From IMG/VR virus record IMGVR_UViG_3300037245_000757, positions 1 through 32,074 of that record: a stretch of DNA of 32,074 bases. One strand, written 5' to 3'. Both the position numbers and the translations under genes were made by a program. How positions within the stretch are numbered: the stretch's first letter is position 1; each line of letters starts with the position of its first letter. The notes under the pieces were generated by a model that was not told the DNA's origin, did no database searches, and worked only from the letters and a program-made list of their open reading frames with translations. The DNA is from a virus. Below, in pieces: positions 7,831 through 31,809 of this stretch.

Positions 7831-8118
7831 ATGGTAAAACAAGTTAAAGACAAACGCCGTAAGAACGCTAAAAAGAAGAAGTTTGAACCGAAGCCAGAGT
7901 GGGTACAGGCGTTTATGATATACTTGCTTCATAAGAACGGTGGAAGCTTGACATTGCCACTGAAAAGCCTCAGAATGTTCGAAGCTTTGAAATCGGCCAA
8001 TCTGACCGACCTGACATACGACGAAGTGGCAGAAACAGTAACGATCACGGCACCGGAAGCAAAACTCCCGGAAAAGTCGAAGATCATACATAACAAGGGA
8101 ATTCAATTAACGAGGTAA
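7831..8118 (+). CDS. hypothetical basic protein, 95 aa
   Basis: The N-terminus is strongly basic (KDKRRKNAKKKKFEPKPEW), followed by a compact domain of about 70 residues. AGAGG precedes the ATG. The translation start region (16 bases around the ATG) is identical to that of the next gene. Nothing identifies the function; a nucleic-acid-binding or minor virion protein is possible given the basic start and its position between portal and capsid genes. Confidence 0.6.
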   Translation: MVKQVKDKRRKNAKKKKFEPKPEWVQAFMIYLLHKNGGSLTLPLKSLRMFEALKSANLTDLTYDEVAETVTITAPEAKLPEKSKIIHNKGIQLTR

Positions 8119-27036: not shown

Positions 27037-27322
27037 ACACGACCACAACGAACTCCACACGCTCGCCGACGACGAAGCTGATATACAGGAAGCCGAAGCG
27101 AGTAAAACAAAGTGTAACGGATGCTGTACGCTCACGGAGGAGCTTTTTGAGTGTCGTATATGCAGCGAAAGCTTTTGTAATGGTGAAGATTGCATGGCAA
27201 TTAACTATAAAAATACAGACTTGAATCTGTGTACTTGTTGTCAGGAAGAATCAAATATAATTATTGACCGGCTGGTTGAACGAATTGAAGATTTAGACTA
27301 TCAAATTCGGAATTTACAATAA
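27026..27322 (+). CDS. small zinc-finger-like protein, 98 aa
   Basis: Nine or more cysteines in residues 30-72 (KCNGCC, FECRIC, SFCNGEDC, LCTCC) are arranged as in treble-clef/RING-like double zinc sites. An acidic N-terminus and a helical end (RLVERIEDLDYQIRNL) flank them. ATG codons at 27026 and 27029 are both possible; the first overlaps the previous gene by 11 bases. Small zinc proteins like this often bind host transcription or ubiquitin-like factors, but no specific role can be claimed. Confidence 0.6.
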   Translation: MMNKHDHNELHTLADDEADIQEAEASKTKCNGCCTLTEELFECRICSESFCNGEDCMAINYKNTDLNLCTCCQEESNIIIDRLVERIEDLDYQIRNLQ

Positions 27323-27338
27323 GAAAAGGAATAGTATT

Positions 27339-27803
27339 ATGGAGAACGAAATATTTGAAGTTGACATAGAGTGCCAAAGTTGCGGCGGAACGGGTCTTTA
27401 CGTAGGAATGGCCGAAAGAGACGGGGCGGCAGTTGTTTGTTGCCGTTGCAAAGGGTCTGGTAAATTCCACCACAAGTTTACATACACACCTTTCGTTAGT
27501 CGTGTAAAAAGAAAAGACGTTCGGCGTGTTTTCGGGAATGGATGCGGCTATGTTCACTCTGCTGATAATGTTGTCATGGAAGATAAAACTCAGATTAACT
27601 TTACACAGGCAGGTGCATCCTACGATGAATGGCTAAACGGCAAAAAACCTATTCCGCTTAAAACTTTATATTGTCCGTTACAGTGGTCAAGCCAGCGATG
27701 GAGTCATAAAGGCTGCCCGAACATCGGCTGTATTACATCATGCCCTAGTAGATGTAATATGGATAAATGTTGGAAATTATATGATGAAGAAAATAAGGAA
27801 TAG
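27339..27803 (+). CDS. DnaJ-type zinc-finger protein, 154 aa
   Basis: CQSCGGTG (residues 12-19) and CRCKGSG (35-41) are two CxxCxGxG half-sites as in the DnaJ cysteine-rich domain. There is no J domain. A second cysteine cluster near the end (GCPNIGC, SCPSRC, MDKC) may bind another zinc. AAAAGGAA precedes the ATG. The start region is nearly identical to that of the next gene (22 bases, one mismatch). It ends in TAG. Confidence 0.65.
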   Translation: MENEIFEVDIECQSCGGTGLYVGMAERDGAAVVCCRCKGSGKFHHKFTYTPFVSRVKRKDVRRVFGNGCGYVHSADNVVMEDKTQINFTQAGASYDEWLNGKKPIPLKTLYCPLQWSSQRWSHKGCPNIGCITSCPSRCNMDKCWKLYDEENKE

Positions 27804-27807
27804 TATC

Positions 27808-28371
27808 ATGGAGAACAAAGAAAATAACACAGACGACATGTACGACGACAGCGAAGCATCCTTTGACCTGAAGGCAGCAACGATCCTCGCCGAACATATC
27901 GCTCTTGAGACTGACGAAGTGTCGGAACTCAAAGCAGAGCATACCAGACGAACAGAGGAGCTTAAACAGGCTCGTATCGCTCTGTATGATTTACAGAAAG
28001 CTGCGGGGATGACGAAGTTTACCACCGAGAGCGGGCTGTCACCGTCACTGAACCTGAAAACAAGGTACGCAAGGAACGCTTCGGTGTCTGAGGAAACCCT
28101 GTTCGGGTTCCTTGAGGATAACAAGCTTGGCGATATTATCAAGCGTACTGTCAATTATAACACGCTCAATAGCACGATGAACGAATATGTTAAAATGGGC
28201 GGCGAGATACCTTTAACGGACGAGGATATGAGCATACCTATGCCTGAGGGCGACGACTATACTTACTCGAAAGAAGAACGTCCCATCATCACATCATGGG
28301 AAGAAAAAGGAATCCGCATGAATGGCAAGAGCAAGTTTGTTGCGGCGTTTAAAGCCGAAAAGGGGGTGTGA
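27808..28371 (+). CDS. conserved phage hypothetical protein, 187 aa
   Basis: The start at 27808 is chosen because AAGGAA precedes it and the same start region occurs at 27339; an earlier ATG at 27781 lies inside the previous gene. Two helices (about 17-70) with ELKAEHTRRTEELKQARIALYD form a coiled coil. A beta turn (TTESGLSPSLNLKTRY) and a helix-rich end follow, with DNKLGDIIKRTVNYNTLNSTMNEY. This 'coiled coil, beta, GLxDlIKRTVN' order recurs in phage genomes near recombination genes. Role unknown. Confidence 0.65.
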   Translation: MENKENNTDDMYDDSEASFDLKAATILAEHIALETDEVSELKAEHTRRTEELKQARIALYDLQKAAGMTKFTTESGLSPSLNLKTRYARNASVSEETLFGFLEDNKLGDIIKRTVNYNTLNSTMNEYVKMGGEIPLTDEDMSIPMPEGDDYTYSKEERPIITSWEEKGIRMNGKSKFVAAFKAEKGV

Positions 28372-28373
28372 TT

Positions 28374-28718
28374 GTGGGTTGGGACGCATTTGCAGAAACA
28401 AAAACGGGAAAAACTATAAAAAGTGCTAAAATCAAAAAAGCATTTAGTGATGCAAGCGATCAGCTATGCTTGCTTGTTGGATGCGATGGTTTTTTGAGTC
28501 ACTGTGCATTAGATTGCTCTGGTGCAGGTGCCGCCTTAAAGGAAGCAACTGGATTTGGAGTTTACGATGAGGCGGGTTGGTCTGCCGAAAAAGTTCAATT
28601 AGCAAAGGCAAAGGCTTCGTGGGAAGAAGTCGAAGGGTGTTTGAGTTTGATCGCATCCGCTAAAGTATTCTTGGATTTATGTGCAAAGCACAATCTGAGC
28701 ATATATTTCAGTTGGTAA
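28374..28718 (+). CDS. conserved phage hypothetical protein, 114 aa, GTG start
   Basis: The GTG at 28374 has GGGGG at 28363-28367 at suitable distance; a GTG at 28368 would add two residues. It has GWDAFAETKTG at the start, ATGFGVYDEAGWSAEKV in the middle, and ends AKVFLDLCAKHNLSIYFSW. The 'YDExGWSxExV ... SAKxFLxxCAxxxLxIxFSW' pattern seems conserved among phage proteins of unknown role. It is followed by a structured leader before the next gene. Confidence 0.65.
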   Translation: MGWDAFAETKTGKTIKSAKIKKAFSDASDQLCLLVGCDGFLSHCALDCSGAGAALKEATGFGVYDEAGWSAEKVQLAKAKASWEEVEGCLSLIASAKVFLDLCAKHNLSIYFSW

Positions 28719-28726
28719 CACCGGAG

Positions 28727-28783
28727 CTTCTGCGGTTTAGAAATACAGAAGTCAAAGAAACTAAGAACTGAAAGGGTAATATC
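28727..28783 (+). promoter_or_regulatory. hairpin leader motif, copy 1
   Basis: CTTCTG (28727-28732) pairs with CAGAAG (28746-28751) around a loop beginning CGGT and ending GAAATA. It is followed by CAAAGAAACTAAGA (28753-28766) and then the GTG start at 28784. A second copy with different but still complementary stem bases precedes 30098. This is a candidate cis-regulatory RNA or protein-binding site. Confidence 0.55.
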
Positions 28784-29833
28784 GTGGAAACAGAAAACAA
28801 ATTAGTAGAGATCAATACTGAAACCTCAAAGCTGGTTGCTTTCGATCCTATCAGATTGGAACTTGCAAAAGTTAAAAAGGCGAACGCCGAGCGTGTATTT
28901 GATTATGAGACGCCAGCGGGCGAGAAAGATGCTCGCAGTTGGGTACACAAGCTCCGCGGGACGAAATCGAAGATCAACGAGATACACAAAACCACAAAAC
29001 AGAAAGCACTTGCAGCTTGCCAGTTGGTTGACTCTGAGCGAAATGAGTGTATCGCCACCATCGAAGAAATGATCGATGTTCACATGAAGCCGATCAACGT
29101 CATAGCCGATCGCATCAAAGCCGAAGAACAGGCAAAGGTCGATGCTATACAGGCAGCAAAGGAAAAAGCCGAAGCGGTAAGGCTGGCTGACATCAAGGCA
29201 CAGGAAGAAGAAAACGAGCGTAAGGCGAAAGAACTGGCTAAGATGCAAGCGGATATCGAGGCAGAGCAAAAAGCAAAGCAGGAAGCGATCGACGAAGCTA
29301 TCAGGAAACAGGAACTCGCAGAAAAGGCTATTGCGGAAGCTGCCGAAAAGATCGAACAGGCAGAAAAAGAAGCGGCTGAAATAGTTTCTGCCGCCAGAGC
29401 GGTTGCAAAAAAGGCAGAACAGGAAAAGGCCACTGCTGTCCAGTTTGCAAAGGAAACCGCCGAAGCATCTAAGCAGCAGGAAGCCGAGCGTGTTCAGCGT
29501 GAAGCTAACATCAAACTCCAGGCCGAAAAGGATGCTCGCGAAAAGGCCGAAAAGAAAGAAGCTGAACACAAGCAGGATCTTATCGATGCGGCTGCAAAGG
29601 CAGAGGTCGAAGAAAGAGCAAAGGCCGAAGCTGAAAAGGAAGAAGCTAAACGTGTTGAGCGTGAAGCTGCTGAAAAGGAAGCGAAGCGGGTTGCTGATGA
29701 GAAGCATCGGGAAAAAGTTGAGAATGTCATCGAAAAAGCCATTAACGATATAATTGGGGATGACCTCATTGCTCGCAACCTTGTTATCGCTATCGTCAAC
29801 GGCGAAATCCCGCACGTAACAATCAATTACTAA
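28784..29833 (+). CDS. long coiled-coil phage protein, 349 aa, GTG start
   Basis: The start is GTG with AAGGGTAAT upstream, behind hairpin leader copy 1. Residues 25-110 have the pattern VFDYETPAGEKDARSWVHKLRGTKSKI and a helix with SERNECIATIEEMID, familiar from phage proteins next to recombination genes. Residues 110-310 are an almost uninterrupted Ala/Glu/Lys/Gln coiled coil (dimeric or trimeric rod). A short folded end (IGDDLIARNLVIAIVNG) follows. The role is not established; a nuclease-inhibitor or recombination-accessory role is a guess from neighbours. Confidence 0.65.
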   Translation: METENKLVEINTETSKLVAFDPIRLELAKVKKANAERVFDYETPAGEKDARSWVHKLRGTKSKINEIHKTTKQKALAACQLVDSERNECIATIEEMIDVHMKPINVIADRIKAEEQAKVDAIQAAKEKAEAVRLADIKAQEEENERKAKELAKMQADIEAEQKAKQEAIDEAIRKQELAEKAIAEAAEKIEQAEKEAAEIVSAARAVAKKAEQEKATAVQFAKETAEASKQQEAERVQREANIKLQAEKDAREKAEKKEAEHKQDLIDAAAKAEVEERAKAEAEKEEAKRVEREAAEKEAKRVADEKHREKVENVIEKAINDIIGDDLIARNLVIAIVNGEIPHVTINY

Positions 29834-29847
29834 GGAAGGCGGTTATT

Positions 29848-30024
29848 ATGGAAGCGATTGTATTGCTCATCATTGTTTTCGTTATTGGACTACTCGTTGG
29901 ATGGTATACAGGTGGAGTCTACATCTACCGTGCCCTGAGAACAGAAGCGAGGACTGGTATTATAAGCTTCAACGAAGAACATTACCGAACCAATAAAGTG
30001 CAAAAGATTACACAGTATACATAA
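29848..30024 (+). CDS. small single-pass membrane protein, 58 aa
   Basis: The ATG at 29848 follows AAGGAAGGCGG. The N-terminal hydrophobic helix (IVLLIIVFVIGLLVGW, residues 4-19) is followed by a basic, then polar 35-residue tail. The gene is intact, well spaced, and lies between the two hairpin leader copies. Function unknown. Confidence 0.6.
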   Translation: MEAIVLLIIVFVIGLLVGWYTGGVYIYRALRTEARTGIISFNEEHYRTNKVQKITQYT

Positions 30025-30032
30025 CCCCGTAA

Positions 30033-30097
30033 CTCCGCCGGTATGAATAGCGGAGGCAAAGAAACTAAGAGTCTAAGAAACTGAAAGAAGGTGTCAA
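30033..30097 (+). promoter_or_regulatory. hairpin leader motif, copy 2
   Basis: CTCCGC (30033-30038) pairs with GCGGAG (30050-30055) around a loop starting CGGT and ending GAATA. CAAAGAAACTAAGA (30057-30070) follows and is identical to the copy at 28753. The GTG start of the next gene is at 30098. Three of six stem pairs differ from copy 1 and all are compensated. Confidence 0.55.
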
Positions 30098-31000
30098 GTG
30101 ACAGAAGAAGAAGAAAAAGCCCAAGAACTGGCGAAAGATGACGTGGCCGAAAAAAAGGTCGATGAAGCACTGGCGAAAAAGCCAGAAACCGAAAACGCAT
30201 TGGCGTTGAGCGATGCAGAGCAAGACGATATATTCGGATCGTCCACGCTGGACAAATCGACGCCGTTATACCTCAAGCATTACAAGATCGTTAAGGATTC
30301 GGCTGAGTTTGAGGTCGGTCCCGACGAACGAGTAAAGAAGCTTGTTGGTCATGTTTTATACAAACACTGTTCAAGCAAATTCTTTAAAGGTAAATTCAAT
30401 CCATCTGAGCCGTCACCTCCAGACTGTTATTCGACTAATGGCGTCAAACCTGATGGTGGTGAAGATGTTCAATGTACCGGTATATGTGTTCAGTGCGAAA
30501 AGGACAAATACGGATCCGGTGACAACGAAAAAAGCAAGGCGTGTAAGAATTACATCCAATTATTGTTTTTACCAGATGGAGCTTTTATTCCGGTAACGAT
30601 ATCGGCGTCGGCTGCATCTTTAGGCAAAAACAGTGACTTGCAAAAGTGGCTTGATGGTGTGGTAAATGAAGTATCGACGGCGTACAATAAAATCGGCAAG
30701 AAGAATAATGCAGGCGAGCCGATCGTCGATTTCTGGTGGGCTAAAGTCGAGATTACTCTCGTGAAAAAGACTTTTTCCAATGGTGAAGCCAGTGCTGTTG
30801 TCATTAAAACACTTGGTATTCTCCTGCCTGATAGCGATGAGAATATGGTGAAAATTCGATCAATACATTCAAAAAAGAAAACTTTCACCGAAGTTTACAA
30901 CAAAGAGCTTCGTACCTTTATCGAAGGCGAAGCCGACGAAGCACCCGCCGAGACAGAACCAGAAGGCGGCTATGACGATGAAGAAGAAATCCCTGTATAG
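30098..31000 (+). CDS. candidate phage ssDNA-binding-type protein, 300 aa, GTG start
   Basis: An acidic helical N-terminus (residues 1-50) precedes a folded core. The core has CTGICVQCEKDKYGSGDNEKS-type zinc cysteines (patterned near 128-145) followed by KACKNYIQLLFLPDGAFIPVTIS (split near 148-170). It then has helical VVNEVSTAYNK and beta FWWAKVEITLVKK. The C-terminus is a strongly acidic tail (EADEAPAETEPEGG, DDEEEIPV), as in many single-strand DNA-binding proteins. The 'GKACKN...LF/L' core recurs in phage proteins near recombination genes. GTG start with AAGGTG upstream. Confidence 0.5.
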   Translation: MTEEEEKAQELAKDDVAEKKVDEALAKKPETENALALSDAEQDDIFGSSTLDKSTPLYLKHYKIVKDSAEFEVGPDERVKKLVGHVLYKHCSSKFFKGKFNPSEPSPPDCYSTNGVKPDGGEDVQCTGICVQCEKDKYGSGDNEKSKACKNYIQLLFLPDGAFIPVTISASAASLGKNSDLQKWLDGVVNEVSTAYNKIGKKNNAGEPIVDFWWAKVEITLVKKTFSNGEASAVVIKTLGILLPDSDENMVKIRSIHSKKKTFTEVYNKELRTFIEGEADEAPAETEPEGGYDDEEEIPV

Positions 31001-31091: not shown

Positions 31092-31233
31092 TGGGACAGT
31101 GGCACGGATGAACGAACAGGGTGCCGTTCATGGCAACTTAACATTGACGTAAGCAAATACGTCGGTGGCACTTTGCCGCAGCCCTTGCAAGGCTGAAAAG
31201 TATTGTCCGCGGCTTGGAACCCGCACTGTCCCA
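31092..31233 (+). ncRNA. ~140-nt RNA domain closed by a perfect 10-bp helix
   Basis: TGGGACAGTG (31092-31101) pairs with CACTGTCCCA (31224-31233). Inside are hairpins ATGAACG/CGTTCAT (31108/31125), GACGT/ACGTC (31146/31159) and CAGCC/GGCTG (31179/31191). It ends six bases before the tRNA. No known RNA family is recognised. Confidence 0.45.
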
Positions 31234-31239
31234 CCTTAC

Positions 31240-31312
31240 TGCGGCGTGGAGAAGTTGGTATCTCGCAAGGCTCATAACCTTGAGGTCGTGGGTTCGAATC
31301 CCACCGCCGCTA
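31240..31312 (+). tRNA. tRNA with CAU anticodon, initiator-like (fMet type)
   Basis: A complete cloverleaf of 73 nt. The acceptor TGCGGCG/CGCCGCT has U1:U72 unpaired, D-stem GAGA/TCTC with GG in the loop, anticodon stem CAAGG/CCTTG with loop CTCATAA, variable AGGTC, T-arm GTGGG-TTCGAAT-CCCAC and discriminator A. CCA is not encoded. The unpaired first base pair, A11:U24 and G30:C40, G31:C39 pairs are bacterial initiator features; A29:U41 replaces the usual third G:C. Elongator Met or tRNA-Ile2 normally pair 1:72 and have Y11:R24. Confidence 0.85.
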
Positions 31313-31360
31313 TTATCTGAAACCGATGGCTCTCGATGAGGCCTTTGTCGAACGGTGAAG

Positions 31361-31522
31361 ACTTTGTAATGCCCAAGCTTGATGCCAAATATATAGGTTG
31401 TCAAATGATTGCAAAGTACTGGATACGGGACTGCCGGCAGGGCGAATTATCCCCTGCTCGGCTTTATATAAAAATAACGACCAAAACAACTATGCCCGTT
31501 GCCGGTGCGGGGATCACCGGCA
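31361..31522 (+). ncRNA. three consecutive strong hairpins downstream of the tRNA
   Basis: ACTTTGTAAT (31361) pairs with ATTGCAAAGT (31408) over 10 positions with one G-U. GCAGGG (31437) pairs with CCCTGC (31452), extended by CCG/CGG past one bulge. TGCCGGTG (31500) pairs with CACCGGCA (31515). A reading frame crossing them (31336-31632) has no ribosome binding site and is judged spurious. Confidence 0.45.
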
Positions 31523-31539
31523 GTAAGAAAATTGAATAC

Positions 31540-31697
31540 AGAATATCAGCAGCGGGAATAAGTGCAGCATGGAAACTATCTGCATCCGGAAAGCCCGCCT
31601 GTGTTATGCCAGATGCGTCAGGTGGCGAATAGCGTCAGACAGTGAAGTAGTCTTTGGCCTGTACCACGCATTGCAGTTCGAATCTGCCTGATATTCT
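31540..31697 (+). ncRNA. cloverleaf-like RNA domain closed by a 10-bp helix, with T-arm-like hairpin
   Basis: AGAATATCAG (31540-31549) pairs with CTGATATTCT (31688-31697). Arm 1 is GCGGG/CCCGC (31552/31594) enclosing TGCAG/CTGCA (31563/31580). Arm 2 is ATGCGT/ACGCAT (31613/31666) continued by CAGG/CCTG (31619/31658) and AGAC/GTCT (31637/31650). Arm 3 is GCAG-TTCGAAT-CTGC (31673-31687), a tRNA-type T-loop stacked directly on the closing helix. It cannot be folded as a normal tRNA. Confidence 0.45.
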
Positions 31698-31809
31698 TAT
31701 CCTTAATGCAACCCAGCCGCAGGTGGTTGTTAAATAAGATGGCCTAAGAAACCATGCAGGCAGAAAAAACAGCGGCCAGTTTTTTAACATTTAACCCGAA
31801 AGGAACGTC
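31698..31809 (+). other. intergenic spacer with A/T-rich hairpin
   Basis: AAAAAAC (31764-31770) pairs with GTTTTTT (31779-31785) around an eight-base GC-rich loop. It could work as a weak terminator for the RNA locus, as the pairing strand is itself a T-run. No promoter was recognised. Confidence 0.35.

Follow-up and report, generated by a model that had tools for sequence, protein, structure and literature searches.

A duplicated, probably pseudoknotted mRNA leader in a tailed phage and its possible role as a gene 32-like translational operator

Introduction

In the 32,074-base IMG/VR record IMGVR_UViG_3300037245_000757 (hereafter the window, i.e., the whole stretch of DNA analysed), two GTG-started genes of a tailed phage, one encoding a coiled-coil protein and the other a product resembling single-stranded DNA-binding proteins (SSB-like), are preceded by closely similar leaders. 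The original prediction, drawn from the letters of the sequence alone, described a duplicated hairpin kept by selection, possibly an autoregulatory site or a riboregulator. What is conserved in these leaders, why do they stand before two genes, and which protein might read them?

The duplicated leader

The homology of the two leaders (28716-28783 and 30022-30097) began at the TAA that ends the preceding gene and reached as far as the GTG start, farther than had been described. Both opened with TAAC[A/C]CCG[G/T]A ahead of the stem, with a TAAC-to-CGGT spacing of 13 bases. After the A-rich tail the homology faded, and each copy continued with ACTGAAAG and a Shine-Dalgarno-like stretch to the GTG. 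The features first reported, i.e., two copies with a stem of six base pairs (bp), a loop opening with CGGT, a shared tail of 14 bases and GTG starts, were all present in the sequence (Table 1). Three of the six stem positions differed between the copies with every pair kept, as had been claimed, and the tail was identical at 14 of 14 positions.

A repeated 14-mer is unremarkable by itself, with a mean of 3.1 per Markov-1 resample of 32 kb and at least one in 172 of 200 resamples. Perfect stems (at least 6 Watson-Crick (WC) pairs, loop of 9-15 bases) ended at a given base in 84 of 32,014 positions per strand, and in both repeat copies such a stem ended exactly 1 nucleotide (nt) before the tail. 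If copy 2 descends from copy 1, the chance of three double changes all pairing was estimated at about (1/3)^3 to (1/4)^3. Compensated changes between two copies are suggestive, not decisive on their own. Selection on the RNA structure of the leader, proposed from the outset, was supported and appears very probable.

The predicted pseudoknot

The conserved CCG located 5' of the stem is complementary to the CGG opening the loop, so that each copy can make a compact H-type pseudoknot. Its layout comprised a stem S1 of 3-4 bp, a loop L1 of 2-3 nt, a stem S2 of 6-7 bp, no junction base, and an A-rich loop L3 of 8-9 nt ending in AAUA. The predicted knots covered 33 nt (copy 1) and 29 nt (copy 2), with 5' ends at -64 and -71 relative to the GTG, and 31-42 nt of A-rich RNA then ran to the start codon. 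The hairpin first described is retained as S2, and an H-type pseudoknot is the better description of the leaders.

The knot scans used a simple nearest-neighbour score with a constant loop cost. The two leaders ranked third and fourth among the distinct + strand pseudoknot sites of the window. Sites of that score were not rare (mean of 2.8 per resampled strand), the unlikely part being that both repeat copies were among them; of 1000 local resamples for each copy, none and 2, respectively, scored as well as the leader. Among the 146 hairpins of both window strands with at least 6 WC bp and a loop of 9-15 bases, seven allowed a correctly placed 3-bp S1, which consisted entirely of GC pairs in the two leaders only. 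Because S1 has few pairs and hardly differs from one copy to the other, the knot is, from the window alone, a good hypothesis and nothing stronger; with the relatives described below, the leader element is probably a pseudoknot.

Three other candidates were dropped. Pairing of the CGGU loop with a downstream ACUG left no bases for L1 and a variable distance, a preQ1-I-like UUAG:CUAA pairing was absent from copy 2, and the 13-nt spacing did not suit a promoter for an extracytoplasmic function (ECF) sigma factor.

Knots before related genes

Relatives of the SSB-like gene were the best 80 of 157 and the best 80 of 440 from two profile scans of viral contigs. In the first set, 8 of 78 leaders scored -12 or below (identical ones, e.g., L105, L109 and L110, being counted separately) against 3.7% of shuffles, and several carried very strong knots 59-76 nt upstream. 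In the second set, this score was reached by 23 of 72 distinct leaders against 8.7% of shuffles. Under tighter geometry, 9 of the 119 distinct target leaders of both scans scored -16 or below, compared with 10 of 522 other-gene leaders from the same loci. Absence from relatives had been named in advance as contrary evidence, and on this point the outcome was mixed: many relatives, several isolated phages included, had no knot, yet 11 of the 20 nearest distinct leaders, all of one subfamily, scored -12 or below with the same architecture and different sequences (backgrounds of 9.0% for other genes under stricter geometry and 8.7% for shuffles). The modest family-wide enrichment indicates that the knot is patchy and confined to part of the family.

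A common layout, with an L1 of 1-2 bases and no junction base, was found in nine leaders picked by score (L234, L235, L239, L240, L245, L249, L251, L255 and L282). Their knots ended 32-48 nt before the start, and several had the tail ACTCTGTT. When the L234 structure was laid on a sequence-only MAFFT alignment of the nine, S1 and S2 both covaried (0.301 against 0.157 when shuffled, reached by 0 of 500), while sliding the structure gave at most 0.12. Five of the six S1 pairs showed changes on both sides, and S1 of the relatives varied from 3 to 6 bp with many pair types.

Pattern searches did not find the exact sequence motif in comparable leaders of other phages. The pattern CGGT...ATA...AAAGAAACTAAG occurred in 9 stretches of viral contigs, none with a comparable leader, and the tail plus ACTGAAAG matched 85 viral stretches as well as 25 genome contigs, all lacking a comparable hairpin leader; two descriptor scans of the relatives' loci gave no equivalent leader. 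None of these 9 and 110 pattern hits thus lay in an equivalent leader: the architecture recurs, the letters do not.

The arrangement of the window was repeated in another record, G020, with the same tail, different but paired stems and two neighbouring genes. The leader of its SSB-like gene (L249) had the knot CGCU-ca-CGGCGU--AGCG-cccaac-ACGCCG. BLAST of this leader against whole records gave a second tail in G020 (17 of 18 bases) 1.6 kb upstream, found through tail similarity alone and independently of the knot scan. It was directly preceded by a knot with wholly different stems, GCCG-ucg-CAGUCC--CGGC-uucau-GGACUG (score -16.5), and followed by the ATG of a gene of 178 amino acids (aa) whose product had no Pfam match. 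Shuffles reached the two G020 knot scores in 10 (L249) and 5 (second leader) of 1000 cases. No second tail copy was found in 7 other whole records examined. On the reverse strand of G020 (L336, about 7920-7970), a separate structure scoring -25, either a knot or a long hairpin, separated the SSB-like gene from its neighbour and is possibly a terminator.

Among isolated phages, Acinetobacter phages Effie, HHU4 and MD-2021a carried the knot GCGU-ua[u/a]-GCCUUAGU--ACGC-uuaa-ACUAAGGC (score -16.1), its 5' end 68 nt before the SSB-like gene, and the Effie score was reached by 0 of 1000 shuffles. The leader of ctUtU524 scored -10.4, and that of PW916 did not stand among the 40 best of the second set.

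The SSB-like product

The 300-aa product of the gene at 30098 belongs by its match to a PHROG family of unknown function (phrog_23155) and gave no Pfam family and no NCBIfam family at useful score. Its cysteines 110, 130, 133 and 149 were invariant in 81 of 81 aligned sequences. An AlphaFold2 model of the window protein (m7da3dbace41a, pLDDT 77) gave Z 5.4 (158 residues) against the RB69 gp32 core and Z 4.1 (161 residues) against T4 gp32, and its viral Foldseek matches at E <= 0.001 comprised two named ssDNA-binding proteins and mostly unnamed others. A better family model (mb796b659ebb8, pLDDT 87) had the RB69 gp32 core as its top, weak PDB Foldseek match (E 0.013, probability 0.87), with Z 6.3 over 148 residues to RB69 gp32 and Z 5.6 to T4 gp32. 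The initial label of ssDNA-binding type is backed by fold resemblance and the cysteine pattern, and by no named family. The weak resemblance and the four cysteines may suit an OB-fold core with an inserted zinc site, as in gp32-type SSB proteins. The product has an acidic C-terminus (YDDEEEIPV), and such an end occurred in 11 of 168 family proteins under a loose pattern; its last residues, EEIPV, resemble the tips of bacterial SSB proteins.

The SSB-like gene was located between an upstream DUF7307-type gene and a downstream polymerase-type gene in L044, L046 and L053 (names read from translations), the DUF7307 gene of L044 being confirmed separately. An SNF2-type helicase gene lay upstream in L046 and L053, again by translation reading, and an annotated DNA polymerase gene lay downstream in PW916, ctUtU524 and AXL_3.

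Comparison with known systems

The operator of T4 gene 32 is described as a knot about 28 nt long; behind it, a less structured RNA segment of more than 40 nt contains UUAAA/UAAA elements (PMC535899). The knot lies about 67 nt upstream of the start, and gp32 nucleates on it (PMC3014915). RB69 is described as having a diverged but similar knot and RB49 as having none (PMC535899, PMC3014915), so that patchiness has a precedent. The window leaders and the gene 32 operators of T4, T2 and RB69 share an H-type knot of about 30 nt, predicted in the case of the window, about 60-70 nt before an SSB-like gene, an A-rich stretch running through the ribosome-binding site, and a product with a gp32-like predicted fold and four conserved cysteines. 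The window differs by its two copies before two genes, an S1 of 3-4 bp, unrelated sequence, a non-T4 phage and a binding that is predicted.

STAXI elements are described as pseudoknots repeated near SSB genes, in tandem and with frequent UUCG loops (PMC2864571), whereas in the window 1.3 kb separates the copies, each of which belongs to a start codon. Rfam gave no match for either window leader (no STAXI up to E 5, no preQ1-I or other riboswitch) or for the leaders of eight relatives. The SAS/ESAS of cluster K mycobacteriophages are repeated leaders at start codons, part of them with an upstream inverted repeat; SAS is a 13-bp GGGATAGGAGCCC beside the start, and its authors saw little support for mRNA hairpins (PMC3203893). 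The window leaders lack the 13-bp GGGATAGGAGCCC, and their stem arms compensate. Searches of the article library used here listed no description of such an element for the phrog_23155-type gene family.

A candidate operator and its alternatives

By analogy with gene 32, each leader is fairly probably a translational operator, present in duplicate, through which the SSB-like protein would control itself and the coiled-coil gene. The product of 30098 would bind single-stranded DNA during replication; in excess, it would nucleate on the pseudoknot, spread over the tail and block ribosome binding. With a leader copy before each gene, this one protein would regulate its own synthesis and also that of the coiled-coil product encoded at 28784. 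The scheme supposes a knot that does form, its binding by the 30098 protein, repression as the result, and a coiled-coil gene that is part of this circuit; it builds on what was established above, i.e., the repeat and its boundaries, the paired stems, the knot geometry, the relatives' knots and the gp32-like predicted fold. Of the functions originally offered, autoregulation by the 30098 product, with presumed binding and repression, is the best supported, and its role as the ligand of a translational operator is modestly favoured.

Several observations weigh against the pseudoknot or the operator. By RNAfold, which ignores pseudoknots, neither leader was unusually stable (z 0.54 and 0.03), and in the best fold of copy 1 (28719-28790) the 5' stem arm and the loop paired with the start region GGGUAAUAUCGUGGAAA. 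S1 of the window was the same in both copies except for its outermost pair and did not covary there, and picking the nine aligned leaders by score favours paired cells, though not the alignment register. With tighter geometry and both scans, 17 of 119 targets scored -12 or below against 47 of 522 other-gene leaders (p=0.063; antisense 7 of 119), and 10 of 119 scored -14 or below against 22 of 522 other-gene leaders of the same loci (p=0.054). No strong knot was found in AXL_3, KPP25, Xp15, Rollin, RHph_TM27A and THSA-485A, i.e., six of the nine isolated-phage records. Genes just upstream of SSB-like genes showed knots in 14 of 109 leaders, no clear excess, and the second leader copy is therefore not general. 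The window tails had CUAAG and GAAAC units instead of the UUAAA/UAAA repeats of the T4 operator; since these repeats are absent and SSB binding is inferred, the element was not filed as a member of the T4-type operators. The fold matches to gp32 were weak, all with Z below 8, and may reflect a common arrangement, and the phiC31 recombination directionality factor (RDF, 9teh_I) outscored gp32 with Z 7.6 (window model) and 8.0 (family model).

Two side observations concern the same data. The alternative fold of copy 1, not seen in copy 2, could be a state hiding the start codon. The slightly higher phiC31 RDF scores hint that SSB-like and RDF-like proteins of phages could be members of one broader fold family.

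One alternative keeps the six-bp stem-loop and the tail as the functional element (protein-bound, mRNA stabiliser or standby site) and treats the CCG-CGG pairing as coincidental. S2 alone covaries between the two window copies, and a 3-bp S1 in this geometry occurred in 5 of the 144 other window hairpins. A hairpin with conserved loop bases 5' of the ribosome-binding site of a replication gene is also known from the T4 gene 43 (gp43) operator, for which the passages cited from PMC3014915 report no pseudoknot. On the other hand, little is conserved outside the tail, yet CCG and CGG are, and they are spaced identically in the two copies; moreover, S1 varied in length and pair type among the relatives and covaried in the nine-leader alignment. 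The plain hairpin is rated as unlikely.

About as improbable is a real operator or riboregulator read by another factor, which could be a different protein of the phage, a protein of the host (e.g., ribosomal protein S1) or a small ligand. Copy 1 does not stand before the SSB-like gene, leader binding by the 30098 product is itself a prediction, and the contig ends at 32074, so that other candidate regulators may lie outside. Against this, unrelated phages have related knots ahead of genes of this family, whose products resemble gp32, known to bind such a knot, and no riboswitch of Rfam matched.

Less probable still is a duplicated leader without any shared regulator, in which insertion or duplication of a 1.3-kb segment, comprising the coiled-coil and membrane genes, carried along a leader that binds ribosomes well, its structure being incidental. 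Leader repeats of other kinds do exist. In this phage, 27318-27350 and 27787-27819 were 85% identical over 33 bases (AAGGAATAGTATYATGGAGAAC) before two ATG starts, with no evident hairpin; in the unrelated L173 (2600-3500, - strand), a leader CAAAGAAACTAAACTT...ACTACTGAAAGGAGG was duplicated 170 bases apart with the first codons of its gene, and this repeated A-rich leader showed no hairpin. Against incidental structure stand the three fully compensated stem pairs, next to a tail identical at 14/14, and the two-copy pattern of G020. A site acting as DNA, i.e., a promoter or a dyad to which a transcription factor binds, would suit the intergenic location of an inverted repeat and the conserved sequence beside it, but a dyad binder needs conserved arms, and here the arms differ at half their positions with the rest conserved, which makes it very improbable. 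Direct autoregulation by the coiled-coil protein was likewise set aside. Among these readings, the duplicated pseudoknot operator is retained.

Genomic context

A P22-like portal and a terminase were recognised in the window. Relatives by capsid and portal exist, the closest being short contigs. In 14 records (13 portal or capsid relatives and the record of L012), no homologue of either leader-bearing gene was found at E <= 0.01. L012, a distant relative of the coiled-coil protein brought in by a weaker match to it, adjoined ERF and YqaJ recombination genes.

Table 1. Coordinates of the leader elements and neighbouring genes in the window (RNA letters for the parts of the predicted pseudoknot).
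Feature	Position	Strand	Sequence	Remark
Copy 1, stop of upstream gene	28716..28718	+	TAA	start of leader homology
Copy 1, S1 5' strand	28720..28723	+	ACCG	pseudoknot scan
Copy 1, S2 5' strand	28726..28732	+	GCUUCUG	pseudoknot scan; WC pairs 28727-28732 with 28746-28751
Copy 1, six-pair Watson-Crick stem	28727-28732 / 28746-28751	+	CTTCTG / CAGAAG	loop CGGTTTAGAAATA, then T
Copy 1, S1 3' strand	28733..28736	+	CGGU	loop start in the original prediction; no bases between S2 and S1
Copy 1, L3	28737..28745	+	UUAGAAAUA	A-rich
Copy 1, S2 3' strand	28746..28752	+	CAGAAGU	
Copy 1, conserved tail	28753..28766	+	CAAAGAAACTAAGA	A-rich
Copy 1, Shine-Dalgarno-like	28770..28776	+	GAAAGGG	read directly; GTG at 28784
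Copy 2, S1 5' strand	30027..30029	+	CCG	pseudoknot scan
Copy 2, S2 5' strand	30033..30038	+	CUCCGC	
Copy 2, six-pair stem	30033-30038 / 30050-30055	+	CTCCGC / GCGGAG	loop CGGTATGAATA, then G
Copy 2, S1 3' strand	30039..30041	+	CGG	
Copy 2, L3	30042..30049	+	UAUGAAUA	
Copy 2, S2 3' strand	30050..30055	+	GCGGAG	
Copy 2, conserved tail	30057..30070	+	CAAAGAAACTAAGA	A-rich
Copy 2, Shine-Dalgarno-like	30086..30091	+	AGAAGG	read directly; GTG at 30098
DUF7307 (Pam3 gp33-like) gene	27781..28371	+		family match; same family directly upstream of the SSB-like gene in L044
Coiled-coil gene, 349 aa	28784..29833	+		GTG start; phrog_1376 (E 6.4e-12), function unknown
58-aa membrane-type gene, stop	30022..30024	+	TAA	stop forms the first bases of copy 2 leader homology
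SSB-like gene, 300 aa	30098..31000	+		GTG start; phrog_23155 (E 3.2e-15); candidate repressor

Downstream of the SSB-like gene, a strongly structured non-coding stretch (31093-31238) was closed by GGGACAGUG/CACUGUCCC, with a minimum free energy of -56.7 kcal/mol (z -3.5), which none of 200 shuffles equalled, and no Rfam match. It was directly followed by a tRNA-Met(CAT) at 31240-31312 and, at 31320-31800, by about 500 further bases without a convincing gene. Within these, 31541-31700 had the ends GAATATCAG/CTGATATTC and a T-arm-like GCAGTTCGAATCTGC, resembling a tRNA that is broken or interrupted, although 31541-31690 did not fold with unusual stability (z 0.48).

Implications

Tentatively, and with more doubt than for the window itself, a family of gp32-fold SSB proteins spread over phages unrelated to T4 may carry knot operators that have kept the knot through a complete turnover of sequence, and which in some phages (the window, G020) were copied to a second gene, giving a small SSB regulon that senses free single-stranded DNA. 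If true, gene 32-like control would extend well outside T4 and act on more than one gene, and it would be testable in isolated Acinetobacter phages (Effie, HHU4), giving a function to a PHROG family that has none assigned. Feedback by SSB proteins through knots would then be a strategy that phages acquired early or evolved more than once, and not a peculiarity of T4.

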